DNA from: Cupriavidus sp. D39 | GTDB lineage: Bacteria; Pseudomonadota; Gammaproteobacteria; Burkholderiales; Burkholderiaceae | Direction: 5' to 3' | NCBI RefSeq assembly: GCF_026627925.1 | Contig: NZ_JAPNLE010000009.1 | Span: forward strand, 5,084,001-5,148,000 | DNA: 64,000 nucleotides | Shown: positions 8,146 through 34,698 of the stretch, piece by piece | Numbering within the stretch: position 1 is the stretch's first letter | How the letters are laid out: each line of letters opens with the position of its first letter | Notes under the pieces: generated by a model | The model's database searches: none | Told to the model about the DNA's origin: nothing | Seen by the model: the letters and a program-made list of their open reading frames with translations, nothing else | Position numbers and translations under genes: made by a program

Positions 8146-8840
8146 ATGAGCCAGAAACCCATGCCGCCGAGCGAGCGTACCCGCGTGCGGCGCGTTGCCG
8201 AGCGCGGCCATTACGATCGCGCGACCCTGCATGCGATCCTCGACGATGCTTACCTGTGCCACCTGGCCTTCACCGACGATCACGGCACCCACTGCATTCC
8301 CACCGCGTGCTGGCGCGAGGGCGAGCACCTCTACATCCATGGCTCCAATGGCAGCCGCATGCTGAAGCTGGCCGCGACAGGCAGCCAGGTCTGCGTAACC
8401 GTGACGCACCTCGACGGCCTGGTGATGGCGCGATCCGCGTTTCATCATTCGATGAACTACCGCTCGGCGGTGATCTACGGCAGTTTTGAAGTGGTGGGTG
8501 GCGCGGCGAAGGCGGCGGCGATGGATGCCTTCCTGGAGCGCATTGCGGTGGGGCGTTCGGGCGAGGCGAGGCCAGGGGATGCCAATGAGCTGGCGGCGAC
8601 CACGGTGTTGCGCATCGGGCTGGAGGAGGCGGCCACCAAGATCCGCAGCGGCGGGCCCAAGGATGACGAGGCCGATATGGCGTTGCCCGTATGGGCGGGC
8701 GTGCTGCCGCTGAGCCTGCAGGGGCAACGGCCGGTGCCGGATGGCTTGCAGCGCAGCGTGCCGGATTATGTGCGGCACTGGGGGAGGGCGCTTGCGCCGA
8801 GGCGGAGGTGCCGGGCAGGACAGTCGCAGTCGATGCTTGA
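8146..8840 (+). CDS. Pyridoxamine 5'-phosphate oxidase-like flavin-binding protein (probable C-terminal frameshift)
   Basis: This is a split-barrel FMN-binding protein. The fold signature is visible in DDAYLCHLAFTDDHGTHCIPTACWREGEHLYIHGSNGSRML and GLVMARSAFHHSMNYRSAVIYG. It is a relative of PNPOx, not necessarily the biosynthetic enzyme. As read, the frame does not stop after VPDYVRHWG but runs on for nearly 280 Arg/Pro-rich residues to 9636, antisense to suhB, which is implausible. A sixth G in the run at 8780-8784 gives a TGA at 8838-8840 and about 231 residues, close to the family size. It lies divergent from a MocR regulator. The function is probably linked to vitamin B6 or flavin redox, but this is unproven. 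Confidence 0.75.
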
Positions 8841-8854
8841 GCCGGCAGCACGCC

Positions 8855-9160
8855 ATGGCCATCCCTGTGCTTTCACGTCGAGAGGCCATCGCGCTGCTGG
8901 CCGTGGTGGGGCTGCTGTACGGCGGGGTGTTCGGTATCGCGCTGGCTTACCTGGCGCTGACCACGGTGAACCGCGCACTGCCGGCCATGGCGACGTCGCT
9001 CGGCCTGCTGGGGGTGCCGGTGTCCGGCAGCCTGTGTTCGGCCCTGGCGCTGGGCGAGCCGCTTGGGCGGCCGCTGCTGGGCGCGATGGCGATGATCGTG
9101 GGCGGCGTGGCACTCGGCATCTGGCATCCTGCCGGGGCGCCGCCGCGCCCGTTACGCTGA
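8855..9160 (+). pseudogene. C-terminal remnant of an EamA/DMT-family transporter
   Basis: This open frame of 101 residues contains two or three membrane segments (IALLAVVGLLYGGVFGIALAYLAL, then a stretch ending in LGEPLGRPLLGAMAMIVGGVALGI). The pattern ALAYLAL-T-NRALPA followed by a Gly/Pro helix and a GEPL motif matches the last part of the second EamA repeat. A full DMT transporter has ten helices and about 300 residues, so the first two thirds are missing. Upstream sequence holds the PNPOx-like gene, leaving no room for it. It is probably a deletion remnant. Confidence 0.55.
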
Positions 9161-10176: not shown

Positions 10177-11172
10177 ATGAACCCGCAGAACCAGACGAGC
10201 GCGGACGCCAGCGGCGCCCCCGCCGCAGCCCCCGCTACCCCGGCCGGCCCGGAGCTTGATCCCCCATCTGGCGCGACTTCCCAGGCAGTTTCCGCTGTCG
10301 CTGCGCAGGCCGCAGCCGCTGCGGCCCTGACGGCCCCCGCCGCGTTCGCCGCCGTGCGCTTCGTGCTGGTCGAGACCAGCCACCCCGGCAATGTCGGTGC
10401 CGTCGCGCGGGCCATGAAGACCATGGGTTTCGGTACCGAGCCGGGCAGCCTGGTGCTGGTTTCGCCACGTGAGCCGGCGGTGCGCGAGCATCCGGATGCC
10501 ATCGCCATGGCCAGTGGCGCCGACGACGTGTTGGCGGGCGCGGTGATCGTCGAGAACATCGAGGCCGCGCTGGCCGGCACCGCTTACGCAGTGGCGCTCA
10601 CTGCACGCCAGCGCGAGTTCGGGCCGCCCCGCCTGCTGCCGCGCGACGCGGTGGCGCAGGCCGGGGCCCGCATTGCCGCCCTGCAAGCAACCCCGCAAGC
10701 CACCCAGCAAAGCACCGCCGCCGTCGGTGCCCACGTAGCCTTCGTGTTCGGCAATGAGCGTTTCGGCCTGCCCAACGAGGTGGTCGACCGCTGCTCGGCG
10801 GTCACCCATATTCCCGCCAATCCCGCTTACACCTCGCTCAATCTTGCCCAGGCCGTGCAACTGGTGGCCTACGAGATGCGCCTGGCGCTGCTGGAGGTGA
10901 GGGCGACGCCGCTCGCCGAGATCGGCTATGCTGGCGAACCGGCCACGGCCGAGCAGATCGAGGCCATGTTTGGCCACCTGCAGTCGGGGCTGGAAGCCAT
11001 CGGCTTCCTCGATCCGGCCAGCCCGAAGAAGCTCATGCCGCGCCTGCGCCGGCTGCTCGCACGCAGCGGGCTGGAGCGCGAGGAAGTCAATATCCTGCGG
11101 GGCATCGCCAAGCACATGCTGGCGGCCGCGCAAGGCCCCGGCGCACGGGCGCCAACCAAACAGGAGAAGTGA
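10177..11172 (+). CDS. trmJ: tRNA (cytidine/uridine-2'-O)-methyltransferase TrmJ
   Basis: This is a SPOUT-class methyltransferase that modifies tRNA position 32. The signature segments are [23 protein letters not shown], the knot region [18 protein letters not shown] and [16 protein letters not shown]. The first 50-odd residues are an unusual Ala/Pro/Thr-rich extension (from [15 protein letters not shown]) that is not part of the SPOUT fold and may be disordered. The start is uncertain: ATGs at 10159 and 10177 are both in frame, and neither has a strong ribosome site. Stop TGA is 5 bases before the next start. Confidence 0.9.
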
Positions 11173-11176
11173 GCAG

Positions 11177-11758
11177 GTGGAGATTCCGGCCTACTACATG
11201 CGTGGCGGCACCAGCAAAGGCGTCTTCTTCCTGGCTGACGACTTGCCCACCGATCCGGGCGACCGCGACGGCGTGCTGCTGCGCGTGATCGGCTCGCCCG
11301 ATCCGCATGGCCGGCACAGCGATGGCATGGGCGGCGCCACTGCCAGCACCAGCCAGGTCGTGCTGGTGCGTTCCTCGCAGCGTCCCGATTGCGATGTGGA
11401 CTGCCTGTTCGGCGCGGTGGCCATCGGCGAGCCGCGCATCGACTGGGCCGGCAATAGCGGCGACCTGCTGGCGGCGGCGGGCCCGTTCGCGATCTGGCGC
11501 GGTTTCGTGCCCGCGCGCGACAGCGTCACCCCCGTGCGCATCTGGCAGCAGAACGTGGGCCAGGCCTGCGTTGCCCGCGTGCCTTGCCGCAATGGCCATC
11601 CGCTCGAGGATGGCGATCTTGCCGAGGACGGCCTGCCGTTTGCGGCGGCCGGGATCGTGCTCGACTACCTCGCGCCGGCCGGTGCGCCATTGCCTTCGCG
11701 CCCCACCAGCGCCCGCCGCCTGATGACCGGCCTGGTTCACGTGCCCGAGCGATGTTGA
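11177..11758 (+). pseudogene. Truncated PrpF-like isomerase (N-terminal half only)
   Basis: This GTG-started frame of 193 residues aligns by eye with the first half of PrpF/aconitate isomerase proteins: PAYYMRGGTSKGVFF, RVIGSPDPHGRHSDGMGGATASTSQVV, CDVDCLFGAVAIG, IDWAGNSGDLLAAAGPFAI, VRIWQQNVGQACVARVP. Family members are about 390 residues with a second, similar domain. Here the frame decays after LDYLAPAGAPLPS and stops at 11758, and no second domain follows before cysE. It starts 5 bases after trmJ. A frameshift alone does not rescue it, since I found no family-like continuation in the other frames. It is probably a deletion-generated pseudogene. Confidence 0.7.
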
Positions 11759-11966: not shown

Positions 11967-12710
11967 ATGTTCACTCGCCTGAAGGAAGATATCGACGCCA
12001 TCATGCGGCGCGACCCCGCCGCACGCAGCCGTCTGGAGGTACTGACCTGCTATCCCGGCTTTCACGCCGTGATGTTCCATCGCTTCGCGCATGCCTGCTG
12101 GAATGGAGGGTTTCACTGGCTGGGCCGCTGGATTTCGCACTGGGCCCGTTTTTTCACCGGCATCGAGATCCACCCCGGCGCCAAGGTGGGGCGGCGCGTG
12201 TTCATCGATCACGGCATGGGCGTGGTGGTGGGCGAGACCGCGGAGATCGGCGACGACTGCACCATCTACCAGGGCGTGACCCTGGGCGGGACCTCGCTCT
12301 ACAAGGGTGTGAAGCGCCATCCCACGCTGGGTGCGAATGTGGTGGTGAGCGCTGGGGCCAAGGTGCTCGGTGGCTACACCATCGGTGACGGCGCGCGCAT
12401 CGGCTCCAATGCCGTGGTGCTCAAGCCGGTGCCGCCGGGCGCCACCGCGGTCGGCATTCCGGCGCGCATCATCTTGCCGGACGCGCCCAGCGGGCAGCAG
12501 GGCGCCAAGCAGGAGTTCTCCGCCTATGGCATCACGCCAAACGCGGACGACCCAGTCTCGCTCGCGCTCAAGAGCCTGATCGACAACGCGGCGCAGCAGC
12601 ACGAGCGACTGGAGACCGTGATGGCCGCGCTGGATCGCCTGGGCGAGCATCTCGAGAACACGCCGAACGACCGCTTCGATGCGAGCGAGCTGCGCAAGTT
12701 GATGAAGTGA
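11967..12710 (+). CDS. cysE: Serine O-acetyltransferase CysE
   Basis: This enzyme forms O-acetylserine from serine and acetyl-CoA, the first step of cysteine synthesis. It has 247 residues. A helical N-terminal region ([22 protein letters not shown]) is followed by a left-handed beta-helix of hexapeptide repeats ([60 protein letters not shown]), which includes the conserved His and Asp of the active site. The start ATG at 11967 (MFTRLKEDI) matches the short-form CysE. Longer in-frame starts would add unrelated residues. The IS200/IS605 element begins just after its stop. Confidence 0.93.
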
Positions 12711-12732
12711 GTTGATCGGGATGCGCGTCAAA

Positions 12733-12753
12733 CCTCGGCCTTTCAGGTCGAGG
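12733..12753 (+). repeat. Left-end subterminal hairpin of the IS element
   Basis: A 9-bp stem, CCTCGGCCT pairing with AGGTCGAGG (one G-T wobble), around a TTC loop. IS200/IS605 transposases recognise such subterminal hairpins in single-stranded DNA, so this is a good candidate for the left-end TnpA site. A second perfect 7-bp hairpin (GGACGCC, loop GTA, GGCGTCC) lies at 12765-12781, just after the tnpA stop. Confidence 0.55.
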
Positions 12754-12791
12754 AAGGATAGCGCGGACGCCGTAGGCGTCCAATGCTGAGC

Positions 12792-13208
12792 TTAGTGCGG
12801 CATTTTCTGCTGTTCGATGTATTGCCGCACAATCTCGATAGGCGCACCGCCACAGCTTCCAGCGAAGTAGGACGGCGACCAGAGAGCGCCGCCCCATAGT
12901 TTCTTGCGGATGCTGGGGTATCCCTTTTCTCGAATCGTGCGGCTGGACACGCCTTTCAGGCTGTTCACCAAGAATGACACTGAGACCTAGGGCGGATAGT
13001 TCACCAGCAAGTGAACATGGTCGTCCTCGCCGTCGAACTCCACCAGTTCGGATTCGAAATCCAAGCAGACGCTGGCAAAGATGCCGCGCTTGTCGCCGAG
13101 TATCTCCTTGGTGAACACATTGCGCCGATATTTGGTCACGAAGACCAAATGCACGTGCATCAGGAAAACGCAATGCTTGCCGTGCCGAATGTTCTGGTTC
13201 TTTCCCAT
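12792..13208 (-). pseudogene. tnpA: IS200/IS605 transposase TnpA interrupted by an amber codon
   Basis: This is a Y1 HUH single-strand transposase. The reading frame is uninterrupted from ATG 13208 to 12987, then meets TAG at 12987-12989, and resumes in the same frame to the TAA at 12792. The context NYPP-stop-VSVSFLVNSLKGVSSR suggests a lysine (AAG) became TAG. The HUH motif (DDHVHLLV) lies before the stop. The nucleophile tyrosine region (IEIVRQYIEQQ) lies after it, so the truncated product of 73 residues cannot cleave DNA. Total intact length would be about 138 residues, typical for the family. Suppression or sequencing error are alternatives. Confidence 0.85.
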
Positions 13209-13230
13209 GGGTCAAGTCTAAAATGGCCCG

Positions 13231-14457
13231 ATGCAACGACTCCAGGCTTTCAAATACGAACTCATGCCGACCGGCGAACAGCAGCGCGACATGCGCCGCT
13301 TCGCGGGGTCGTGCCGGTTCGTATTCAACAAGGCGCTGGCGTTGCAGAAAGAGAACTACGAAGCGGGCGGCAAGTTCATCGGGTACGTCGCAATGGCGAA
13401 GCGCCTGACCGAGTGGCGTAATGGAACGGAGACACCTTGGCTCAAGGATTCCCCGGTTCACCCGCTGCAACATGCGCTCAAGGCTTTGGAGCGAGCCTAC
13501 AAGAACTTCTTCGGCAAACGCGCCGCCTATCCGTGTTTCAAGAAGAAAGGGCAGCGCGACAGCTTCCGCTACCCCGACTCGAAGCAGATCAAGCTCGACC
13601 AGACTAACGGACGAATCTTCCTGCCGAAATTGGGCTGGCTGCGCTATCGCAATTGCCGGGATGTGTTGGGCAAGGTCAAGAACGCCACGGTATGCCGGTC
13701 GGGTGGCAAGTGGTTCGTTTCGGTCCAGACCGAGCGGGAAGTGGAGCAGCCGGTGCCGCAGGCCACCAGTGCTATCGGGATTGACATGGGCATTACCCGT
13801 TTCGCTACGCTCAGCAATGGCACCTACCTCGCGCCGCTCAACAGCTTCAAGAAGCACGAGGCCCGTCTGCGCCGCTACCAGCGCGCAATGCGCCGCAAGA
13901 CAAAGTTCAGCAGCAATTGGAAGAAGGCGAAAGCCCGTGTCCAGCGAATTCACACCCGCATCAGCAATGCCCGCCGGGACTACCTGCACAAAGCCACGAC
14001 CACGATCAGCCAAAACCACGCGATGGTGTGCATCGAGGACTTGCAGGTGGGAAATATGTCCAGGTCTGCGGCGGGAAGCACCGCGGCGCCGGGTAAGAAC
14101 GTTCGGGCCAAGTCTGGCCTGAACAAAGCCATCCTCGACCAAGGCTGGTTCGAGTTCCGTCGCCAGCTCGAGTACAAGCTGGCGTGGAATGGCGGCTGGC
14201 TTATTGCAGTGCCGCCGCAGCACACCAGCCAGACTTGTCCGCGTTGCAGTCATGTCTCTGCCGAGAGCCGGCAGACCCAAGCTCGGTTCGCCTGTGTGGC
14301 GTGCGGGTTCGAGGAGCATGCCGACCTGGTCGGCGCGATTACCGTTTTGGCGCGGGGACACCGCGTTGCAGCCTGTGGAGAGCCGGCGCAGTCAGGCCGC
14401 TCTATGAAGCAGGAACCCACCGAAGCGGCTACGCAAAATATCTGCGTAGCGCCGTAG
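13231..14457 (+). CDS. tnpB: IS605-type TnpB, RNA-guided nuclease family (intact)
   Basis: This is a 408-residue TnpB/OrfB. An N-terminal helix-turn region (MQRLQAFKYELMPTGEQQRDMRRFAGSCRFVFNKAL) is followed by a split RuvC-like nuclease: first Asp in AIGIDMGITRFATLS (about residue 185), Glu in MVCIEDLQVGNMS, last Asp in EEHADLVGAITVLARG. A zinc ribbon CPRC...CVAC precedes the last acidic residue. All three acidic residues and four Cys are present, so it is probably active as an omega-RNA-guided DNA nuclease, as shown for ISDra2 TnpB. It is divergent from the broken tnpA by only 22 bases. The C-terminal tail of about 35 residues overlaps the putative omega RNA. Confidence 0.92.
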   Translation: MQRLQAFKYELMPTGEQQRDMRRFAGSCRFVFNKALALQKENYEAGGKFIGYVAMAKRLTEWRNGTETPWLKDSPVHPLQHALKALERAYKNFFGKRAAYPCFKKKGQRDSFRYPDSKQIKLDQTNGRIFLPKLGWLRYRNCRDVLGKVKNATVCRSGGKWFVSVQTEREVEQPVPQATSAIGIDMGITRFATLSNGTYLAPLNSFKKHEARLRRYQRAMRRKTKFSSNWKKAKARVQRIHTRISNARRDYLHKATTTISQNHAMVCIEDLQVGNMSRSAAGSTAAPGKNVRAKSGLNKAILDQGWFEFRRQLEYKLAWNGGWLIAVPPQHTSQTCPRCSHVSAESRQTQARFACVACGFEEHADLVGAITVLARGHRVAACGEPAQSGRSMKQEPTEAATQNICVAP

Positions 14458-14516
14458 AATCCCTCCCTTTCCGCCGAAAGGCGGCGGCCGCAGGCCGAGG
14501 GAGGGGAGGATGTCAA
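14400..14516 (+). ncRNA. Putative omega RNA / structured right end of the tnpB element
   Basis: The 3' end of tnpB and the right end carry strong structure. First comes a 7-bp hairpin GCTACGC / GCGTAGC overlapping the last tnpB codons (about 14428-14450). Then comes a three-way junction: an outer 8-bp stem (CCCTCCCT 14461-14468 with AGGGAGGG 14498-14505) enclosing CCGCC-GAAA-GGCGG (14471-14484) and CGGCC-GCA-GGCCG (14485-14497). In studied TnpB systems the guide RNA is made from this region, with the flank (here from 14517) as guide. Structure is seen directly. Its transcription and the 5' end are inferred. Confidence 0.4.
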
Positions 14517-14566
14517 GAAGTGATTTGACGAAGCAGACGGATGCAGCAGGGAAGGGGGATTCGGCG

Positions 14567-32799: not shown

Positions 32800-34698
32800 A
32801 TGAGCCAACAAAACCAGTTCCGTCTGCTCCGCACGCGCCGCTTCGCGCCGTTCTTCTGGACCCAGTTCCTGGGCGCCATGAACGACAACCTGTTCAAGGT
32901 CGCCTTCACCTCCCTTGTCACCTACCATACGGCCCTGTTCGACGGCGTTGACGCCAAGAGCGCGGCGTTCCTGATCTCGGCCATCTTTATTGCGCCGTTC
33001 GTGCTGTTCTCGGCCACCAGCGGCCAGATCGCCGACAAGATCGAGAAATCCCGCCTGATCCGGCTGGTGAAGACGCTGGAAATCGCCATCATGCTGCTGG
33101 GCCTGGCGGGCTTTGCCATACACAGCGCGCCCTTGCTCTACACGGGTACCTTCCTGATGGGGCTGCACTCGACGCTGTTCGGCCCGGTCAAGTTCGCCTA
33201 CCTGCCGCAGCACCTGGACGAGACCGAGCTGGTGGGCGGCAACGGGCTGGTGGAGATGGGCACCTTCGTCGCCATCCTGCTTGGCACCCTGCTTGGCGGC
33301 GAACTGGCCGGCCTGACCCATGGCGAGGAGATCGTGGGGCCGCTCTATGTCGGCGCCGCCTGCGTGCTGCTGGCGCTGGTCGGGCGCATGGTGTCCGCGC
33401 GCGTGCCGGATTCGCCGGCGCCGCAGCCTGACCTGCGCATCAACTGGAACCCGTTCTCCGAAACCTGGCGCAACCTCAAGCTGGCGCGGACCGACCGCAC
33501 GGTGTTCCTGAGCCTGCTGGGGATTTCCTGGCTCTGGTTTTTGGGCGCGACGTTCCTCACCTCGTTTTTCAGCTTTGCCAAGGACGTGCTGGGCGGCGAC
33601 CAGAATGTGGTGACGCTGCTGCTGGCGGTGTTCTCGGTCGGCATCGGCACCGGCTCGCTGCTGTGCGAGCGGCTGTCCGGGCGTCAGGTGGAGATCGGTC
33701 TGGTGCCGTTTGGCTCGATCGGCATGACGGTGTTCGCGGTCGACCTGTTCTTTGCCAGCAACGGCGAGCATCATGCAGAACTATCCGGGCTGGCCGGCTT
33801 TGCCGCCGACCCGCGCCACTGGCGCGTGCTGATCGACCTGTTCCTGCTGGCGATGTTCGGCGGCTTCTACAGCGTGCCGCTGTACGCGCTGATCCAGAGC
33901 CGCTGCGCGCCGACGCACCGGGCCCGCATCATTGCCGCCAACAACATCCTCAACAGCTTTTTCATGATCGGCTCCTCGCTGCTGGCGGTGGTGCTGACCC
34001 AGGCCGGTTTCAGCATTGCGCAGCTGTTCCTGGTGGTGGGGCTGCTCAACGCGGTGGTCGCCATCTACATTTACTCGCTGGTGCCGGAGTTCCTGCTGCG
34101 CTTCATTGCCTGGATCCTGGTGCACACGGTGTATCGCCTGAAGCGCGTCAATGCCGAGCACATTCCGACCGAGGGTGCGGCGGTGCTGGTGTGCAACCAC
34201 GTCAGCTTTGCCGATGCGGTGGTGCTGATGGCCGCGAGCCCGCGTCCGGTGCGTTTTCTGATGGACCACCGCATCTTCAAGGTGCCGCTGATGTCGTGGT
34301 TCTTCCGCCAGGCCAAGGCTATCCCGATCGCGCCGGCGCACGAGGACCCGGTCATGCTGGAGCGCGCCTACGACGAGGTCGCGCGCGCGCTGGCCGACGG
34401 CGACCTGGTCTGCATCTTCCCGGAGGGCAAGATCACGGCCACCGGCGAGCTCAATCCCTTCAAGCAGGGCGTGCAGCAGATCATCCGGCGCACCCCGGTG
34501 CCGGTCGTGCCGATGGCGCTGCGCGGGCTGTGGGGCAGTTTCTTCTCGCGCAAGGGTGGCAACGCCATGTCCCGGCCATTCCGGCGCGGCATCCTCAACC
34601 GGCTGGAACTGGTCGTGGGCGACCCGATTGCGCCGGAACTGGCCACGCCGGAGGGGCTGCAGCAGGTGGTGCAGGGCCTGCGCGGCGAGTGGCGCTAA
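32800..34698 (+). CDS. Lysophospholipid transporter-acyltransferase fusion (LplT-PlsC)
   Basis: This is a 632-residue two-domain protein. Residues of about 1-430 form an MFS transporter like LplT (FLGAMNDNLFKVAFTSLVTY, GLHSTLFGPVKFAYLPQHL). From about 440 there is a PlsC-type acyltransferase with the NHxxxxD motif in VLVCNHVSFADAVV and FPEGKITATGELNPFK. It probably flips lysophospholipids inward and re-acylates them, as separate LplT and Aas do in E. coli; unlike Aas it lacks an AMP ligase domain. Start MSQQNQFRLL at 32800. It lies 22 bases upstream of a GST gene. Confidence 0.9.
   Translation: MSQQNQFRLLRTRRFAPFFWTQFLGAMNDNLFKVAFTSLVTYHTALFDGVDAKSAAFLISAIFIAPFVLFSATSGQIADKIEKSRLIRLVKTLEIAIMLLGLAGFAIHSAPLLYTGTFLMGLHSTLFGPVKFAYLPQHLDETELVGGNGLVEMGTFVAILLGTLLGGELAGLTHGEEIVGPLYVGAACVLLALVGRMVSARVPDSPAPQPDLRINWNPFSETWRNLKLARTDRTVFLSLLGISWLWFLGATFLTSFFSFAKDVLGGDQNVVTLLLAVFSVGIGTGSLLCERLSGRQVEIGLVPFGSIGMTVFAVDLFFASNGEHHAELSGLAGFAADPRHWRVLIDLFLLAMFGGFYSVPLYALIQSRCAPTHRARIIAANNILNSFFMIGSSLLAVVLTQAGFSIAQLFLVVGLLNAVVAIYIYSLVPEFLLRFIAWILVHTVYRLKRVNAEHIPTEGAAVLVCNHVSFADAVVLMAASPRPVRFLMDHRIFKVPLMSWFFRQAKAIPIAPAHEDPVMLERAYDEVARALADGDLVCIFPEGKITATGELNPFKQGVQQIIRRTPVPVVPMALRGLWGSFFSRKGGNAMSRPFRRGILNRLELVVGDPIAPELATPEGLQQVVQGLRGEWR

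Follow-up and report, generated by a model that had tools for sequence, protein, structure and literature searches.

The window analysed here, a stretch of 64,000 nucleotides from Cupriavidus sp. D39, carries a complete IS605-type element at positions 12717-14516, located in the cysE-lpxH spacer 3′ of a TTGAT, in a host genome of 7.74 Mb that is 97.8% complete. An IS200/IS605 element of this extent had been proposed in an earlier note on this DNA, and a left end (LE) after TTGAT, the terminus of a right end (RE), tnpA and tnpB could all be located. The left flank (12699..12716, plus strand) holds the remains of a tandem repeat with two copies of TTGAT (12699-12703 and 12712-12716), the second of which stands directly 5′ of the element as the expected TAM. 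On visual inspection the LE (12717..12791, plus strand) includes a stretch at 12733-12753 that could form an imperfect hairpin, and the RE finishes with GAGGATGTCAA at 14516. Among 98 rows made up of the window and 97 loci, 6 of the loci being duplicates and 3 having a disrupted tnpB, TGTCAA was present 3′ of tnpB in 86, and a strict pattern recovered TTGAT-LE in 26, of which L056 at least appears fortuitous.

In the three genomes nearest by flank identity (G003, G005 and G007) the cysE-lpxH spacer consists of TGATGAAG-like units in a short tandem repeat and holds no element; TTGAT lies inside this repeat in two of the three. The TTGAT at the LE together with the empty spacer in these related genomes fits an insertion 3′ of TTGAT without target duplication, as characterises the IS605 group, the repeat at the site precluding base-exact proof.

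The transposase gene tnpA runs on the minus strand from 13208 to 12792 and is interrupted by a single in-frame TAG at 12987-12989, codon 74. An N-terminal part of 73 amino acids with the HUH motif His64/His66 (12987..13208, minus strand) is thereby separated from a 62-amino-acid open stretch with the catalytic Tyr130 (12792..12980, minus strand), and the stop thus lies between the HUH motif and the tyrosine as the earlier note had described. Each half alone matches PF01797 (65.0 and 62.2 bits), NF033573 was matched as well, and the HUH-Y1 transposase gene that marks the IS605 group is present, though interrupted. Apart from the TAG, tnpA departs from its relatives at 1 of 66 conserved columns. 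This functional appearance of the remaining gene is what a base-call error in an intact tnpA would leave, an explanation that we regard as very unlikely since the exact 73-amino-acid product occurs in the protein database on five contigs, which may not be independent, and since a 97% identical protein (P0002), with 2 differences in 73 residues, terminates at the same position, at a stop or a contig edge. A third (P0069), 79% identical, likewise ends at residue 73 by a stop or a contig edge. The search was made with the 73-amino-acid piece, and its length filter keeps out intact TnpA of 138 amino acids.

One may also speculate that the stop is tolerated, recoding or assembly of the two fragments preserving transposase activity. 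The working form of TnpA is a dimer, the second fragment has an open frame starting with GTG, and each half is recognisable as a family member by itself. Against this, a stop at codon 74 is not conserved, 34 of 35 aligned intact relatives having Lys in this column and the remaining one Asn (35 of 37, the extraction pattern having missed L045 and L054). To our knowledge neither recoding nor fragment assembly has a precedent in the IS200/IS605 family, and we consider this the most improbable of the explanations discussed here.

The adjoining tnpB (13231..14457, plus strand) encodes 408 amino acids and matches NF040570 guided_TnpB with 371.3 bits. The assertion that it keeps all three RuvC acidic residues and the zinc ribbon was confirmed (D185, E269 and D365; C336, C339, C355 and C358). 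At 7 of 168 conserved columns, those on which at least 95% of the 87 remaining sequences agree, the protein departs from its relatives, which places it joint third of 88 with L031 and L068 where the median is 2; one of the seven departures, N371T, lies six residues after D365. A full-length TnpB in the protein database (P0121) shares 407 of 408 residues with that of the window, and represents a cluster of 11 sequences that seemingly includes the window's own TnpB. TldR proteins are domesticated TnpB derivatives, nuclease-dead repressors in which the RuvC catalytic residues are lost. The element resembles them in having a TnpB-related RNA-guided protein without an active transposase, but differs in that its RuvC triad is intact, so that the TldR-type loss of catalytic residues is not seen, and in that neither a conserved host locus nor a partner gene was seen.

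The omega-RNA scaffold and RE (14375..14516, plus strand) overlap the 3′ end of tnpB and score 84.0 bits with a covariance model for which 27 of the 31 tnpA-intact relatives whose RE could be located were used. The scaffold is one G short in its core motif GTAGGAATC, of which AGGAATC is invariant across the 27 relatives of the model. The expected guide, GAAGTGATTTGACGAA (14517..14532, plus strand), is flanking DNA read into the omega-RNA, its length of 16 nucleotides being taken by analogy from ISDra2 as given in PMC10097598. A chromosomal guide target was ruled out: besides the element's own junction, the genome holds no TTGAT followed by the 15-nucleotide guide site with up to 3 mismatches. 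By our reading, the empty repeats of G003, G005 and G007 would also be poor targets because they mismatch the guide at several of its first positions. In the left flank, TTGAT is followed by GAAGTGAGTTGATCGG (12699-12719), which shares 11 of 16 positions with the guide of the element itself, all 11 within the first 12; this putative near-self-target is a remnant of the tandem repeat at the insertion site. Sigma-70 consensus matches numbered 0 against 0.6 expected by chance, too few to inform on promoters.

Decay of tnpA and of the omega-RNA among relatives

The state of tnpA was called by tblastn against ten cores of 126-127 residues, a gene being intact when at least 93% was covered without a stop, at 80 loci of the genome collection which are the best 80 of 423 relatives by similarity to open TnpB. 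Of these 80 loci, 34 have an intact tnpA and 25 have none; the gene is truncated in 17, carries a stop in 1 and a frameshift in 1, with one further call cut at a contig end and one without data. With the exception of L028, where it is disrupted, tnpB is open at all of these loci, and the 79 divide into 34 with intact tnpA, 43 with tnpA not intact and 2 unjudged. An open tnpB beside a damaged or missing tnpA is hence a frequent state of the clade (43 of 79 loci from the best 80 of 423).

The earlier note had raised early domestication, or selection for retention of the element through target cutting, as one reading of the locus and a recent mutation as the other. According to the former, TnpB and its omega-RNA are kept for cutting element-free alleles, or another target useful to the host, while the element is immobile. 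The frequency of full-length tnpB beside a broken or missing tnpA would agree with such retention, as would the open frame and preserved catalytic residues of tnpB in the window, but choosing loci by an open-looking TnpB tilts the sample towards those in which tnpB has survived. The site itself speaks against it, since among the matches listed no row for 59 other congeneric genomes spans the junction of flank and element, and the locus is accordingly not common to other species within those matches. In the genome sets each species is represented by a single genome.

The omega-RNA also weighs against retention. Of 36 elements with intact tnpA, 35 have the full core motif unchanged, as do 37 of the 49 whose tnpA is damaged or missing (Fisher p 0.006). 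Defects are thus concentrated in the latter (12 of 49 versus 1 of 36), and when terminal branches are weighted by length 12 of 13 motif losses fall on defective tips where 66% are expected (one-sided p 0.037). Both tests take the tips as independent and exclude the window, 6 duplicates, 3 disrupted loci, 2 loci whose tnpA was unjudged and 1 that runs off its contig. From this distribution we argue that upkeep of the nuclease arm mostly goes along with transposition. The defect in the window should be read with the qualification that L039 has the same G deletion and that the window's scaffold scores slightly above those of three tnpA-intact relatives (L054, L034 and L073), which weakens the scaffold as an argument for decay.

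In other Cupriavidus genomes our reading of the tables gives 31 full or nearly full copies of the family tnpB, 8 of them adjoining an intact tnpA, and 13 of the 23 copies without one sit in a single genome, G019. For G019 and G038 the tables mark internal stops, which lie near the C-terminal end in the copies read and leave open frames of 386 (L102) and 415 (L096) amino acids. The reverse state, intact tnpA with a cut tnpB, was met once in these Cupriavidus tables (G033 contig 2). TTGAT-LE is kept 5′ of tnpB in nine relatives without a recognisable tnpA.

Carriage by phage found no support, as megablast gave no match to the element among phage records; TnpB relatives are encoded at 35 viral-contig loci and are at most 78% identical. 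Plasmid carriage was likewise set aside, as 14 of 72,556 plasmid records match, at 73-83% DNA identity, two of them spanning at least 80% of the query.

Selection on the two genes and the age of the stop

Selection was estimated as dN/dS with a purpose-written codon-likelihood script. For tnpA (36 sequences and 130 columns, with the column of the stop masked) the window branch has a dN/dS of 0.073 against a background of about 0.066-0.067 (2ΔlnL 0.004, p 0.95), and the log-likelihood drops by 1.35 when the value is set to 0.15 and by 2.51 at 0.20, the 95% upper bound lying between these values. By our arithmetic the neutral share of this branch would be at most about 12%. A window branch that evolves like that of intact relatives indicates that the TAG is young relative to the branch, and of the two readings in the earlier note it is the recent mutation that fits these data best. 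The absence of relaxation in tnpA also means that there has been too little time for a contrast between a kept tnpB and a decayed tnpA to develop.

For tnpB (88 sequences and 394 columns, after omission of 6 duplicates, 3 loci with disrupted tnpB and 1 misaligned start) the window branch gives 0.075-0.077 (95% interval about 0.05-0.11) against a background of about 0.13 (p 0.01). The low dN/dS that domestication would call for is therefore present, but the branch on which it was measured is mostly older than the arrival of the element at this site. The flanking genes are separated from those of the three empty genomes by a pairwise t of 0.60-0.66, or about 0.3 per lineage, while the element's own branch measures 1.2-1.5, in units that are only roughly comparable with those of the flanks. 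The element would accordingly have arrived late in its branch, unless the three empty genomes have lost it cleanly. Since the branch mostly predates the insertion, the constraint on tnpB cannot be credited to the time after the death of tnpA, and the dN/dS measurement suggested by the earlier note, while it does return a constrained tnpB, says little about what followed the stop.

Nor is the position of the lesion telling. Single base changes could create a nonsense codon in 199 ways across the two genes, 52 of them in tnpA (26%, or 24% with transitions weighted) and the rest in tnpB, which makes a first stop in tnpA unremarkable and shows no differential selection. Across the relatives the median dN/dS of tnpB is 0.137 in tnpA-defective tips (n=45) and 0.116 in intact ones (n=29). 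Both values are far below 1, as expected if a nuclease were retained after loss of the transposase, but the slightly higher value in the defective tips points the other way (Mann-Whitney p 0.03), without significance in the likelihood test (p 0.11).

Mobility and other copies of the element

The earlier note had held that the element cannot move. In the window's genome the broken tnpA is the sole Y1-transposase match, so that the candidate of a second Y1 transposase in this host was rejected, and in a genome 97.8% complete this makes immobility in this strain plausible. As a general statement the claim is too strong, as is illustrated by G019. In that genome Y1_Tnp matches occur at 11 places with the same model start position and one TGA each, beside 13 nearly full copies of the family tnpB (L102, L158, L170 and L179 among the loci) and no intact transposase of this type. 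Three further Y1_Tnp matches there comprise two partial ones and one distant match of 34 bits in a 243-amino-acid open frame, which we take for another type. The three tnpA copies read share the same N-terminal loss and keep the HUH motif and Tyr in a 104-amino-acid frame after the TGA. The lesioned copies seem to have spread in G019, perhaps in trans by a TnpA since lost, and scattered copies with one and the same lesion suggest that a dead tnpA need not mean immobility.

It is thus conceivable, though we would not favour it, that the element in the window is still mobile through TnpA supplied in trans by another element, be it in other strains or incoming by transfer. The ends of the element look intact, and the multiplication of lesioned copies in G019 would offer a parallel, as would Halanaerobium, where, according to PMC7290912, 17 of 22 IS605 elements have the same internally deleted type of tnpA and a single one has the gene intact, the authors judging them movable in trans. 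Against this stand the single copy of the element and the lack of a second Y1_Tnp match in its own genome; for G019, moreover, the 104-amino-acid frame may have residual activity in cis, or the copies may have been homogenised. Halanaerobium hydrogeniformans, as portrayed in that source, is alike in combining intact ends and tnpB with a deleted or broken tnpA, but has many copies and one intact tnpA where the genome of the window has one copy and no intact tnpA that could be found.

Beside this single copy, the genome of the window holds an RE and scaffold remnant, two LE-like stretches, one of them near a distant tnpB, and four weaker tnpB matches of 31-37% identity. The remnant (L007:1502-1649, minus strand) is a solo RE with a complete omega-RNA scaffold of 79.9 bits and only a short tail of tnpB; its guide has no other TTGAT target with up to 3 mismatches in the genome, and its RNA could in theory serve as a guide in trans for the TnpB of the window. 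A solo LE (L009:1501-1569) consists of TTGAT and LE, with no tnpA or tnpB match within the locus of 3069 bases.

Relation to known systems and a probable early decay

A close counterpart is ISDra2, the IS605-group element of Deinococcus radiodurans, with which the element of the window shares TTGAT as target and TAM (PMC8612924), a Y1 tnpA with tnpB and a right-end guide RNA. Residues 3-373 of the window's TnpB are homologous to ISDra2 TnpB (phmmer E 6e-53 to 8bf8). The element of the window differs in its broken tnpA. The TnpB of ISDra2 cuts adjoining TTGAT, and the target proposed in PMC8612924 is the donor joint left after excision by TnpA. With its tnpA dead the element is functionally alike to the tnpB-only IS1341 group, but members of that group have no tnpA-derived sequence, and with nearly full tnpA sequence it is, by the rule in PMC9956272, a decayed IS605 element and not an IS1341.

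The most plausible hypothesis, which we consider probable, is that an ordinary IS605-group element, belonging to a TnpB clade found mainly in Betaproteobacteria, sits in a Cupriavidus chromosome and has entered the first stage of decay, with no demonstrated selection for its nuclease. This is supported by the unrelaxed tnpA on the window branch, the single Y1 match, the scaffold short of a G, the departures of TnpB at conserved columns and the common occurrence of the same state among the best 80 of 423 relatives. Other observations count against it: tnpB is not relaxed and even lies below background, a near-identical full-length TnpB (P0121) exists, and the shared end of P0002 at 97% identity suggests a stop old enough for slight divergence. 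Under early decay, the element would cease to excise in a cell without TnpA and donor joints would no longer arise, so that TnpB would meet none of the empty joints that are presumably its cut target. Its role in retention would then be idle, save against incoming element-free alleles with TTGAT and GAAGTGATTTGACGAA. The route, in which tnpA would be lost first with tnpB still open, would be shared with many relatives, and the element may then be viewed as a single-lesion snapshot of a possible start of tnpB-only elements.

Early domestication or selection for retention gains no positive support from these results, with tnpA unrelaxed, a tnpB branch that mostly predates the arrival at the site and a scaffold one G short, and we hold it to be unlikely; if TnpB is active and selected here, domestication would have been caught at its first step. 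The remaining task for TnpB, cutting incoming element-free alleles, would permit a related reading in which TnpB and its guide RNA persist after the loss of TnpA and act by themselves as a homing nuclease. A gene-drive role on plasmids is reported for TnpB in PMC11870625. For the present element we think the homing reading more unlikely still; if it is true, the locus would drive itself through the species without transposition.

Elsewhere in the window three minor features were seen. A PrpF match at 10928-11758 covers only profile positions 1-169 of 371, and the gene looks truncated. A short ORF at 8741-9160 has a weak match, below the cut-off, to the C-terminal part of EamA, and is possibly the remnant of a transporter. 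At 33470-33591 there is an Rfam match of 58 bits to the Burkholderia sRNA Bcj11.
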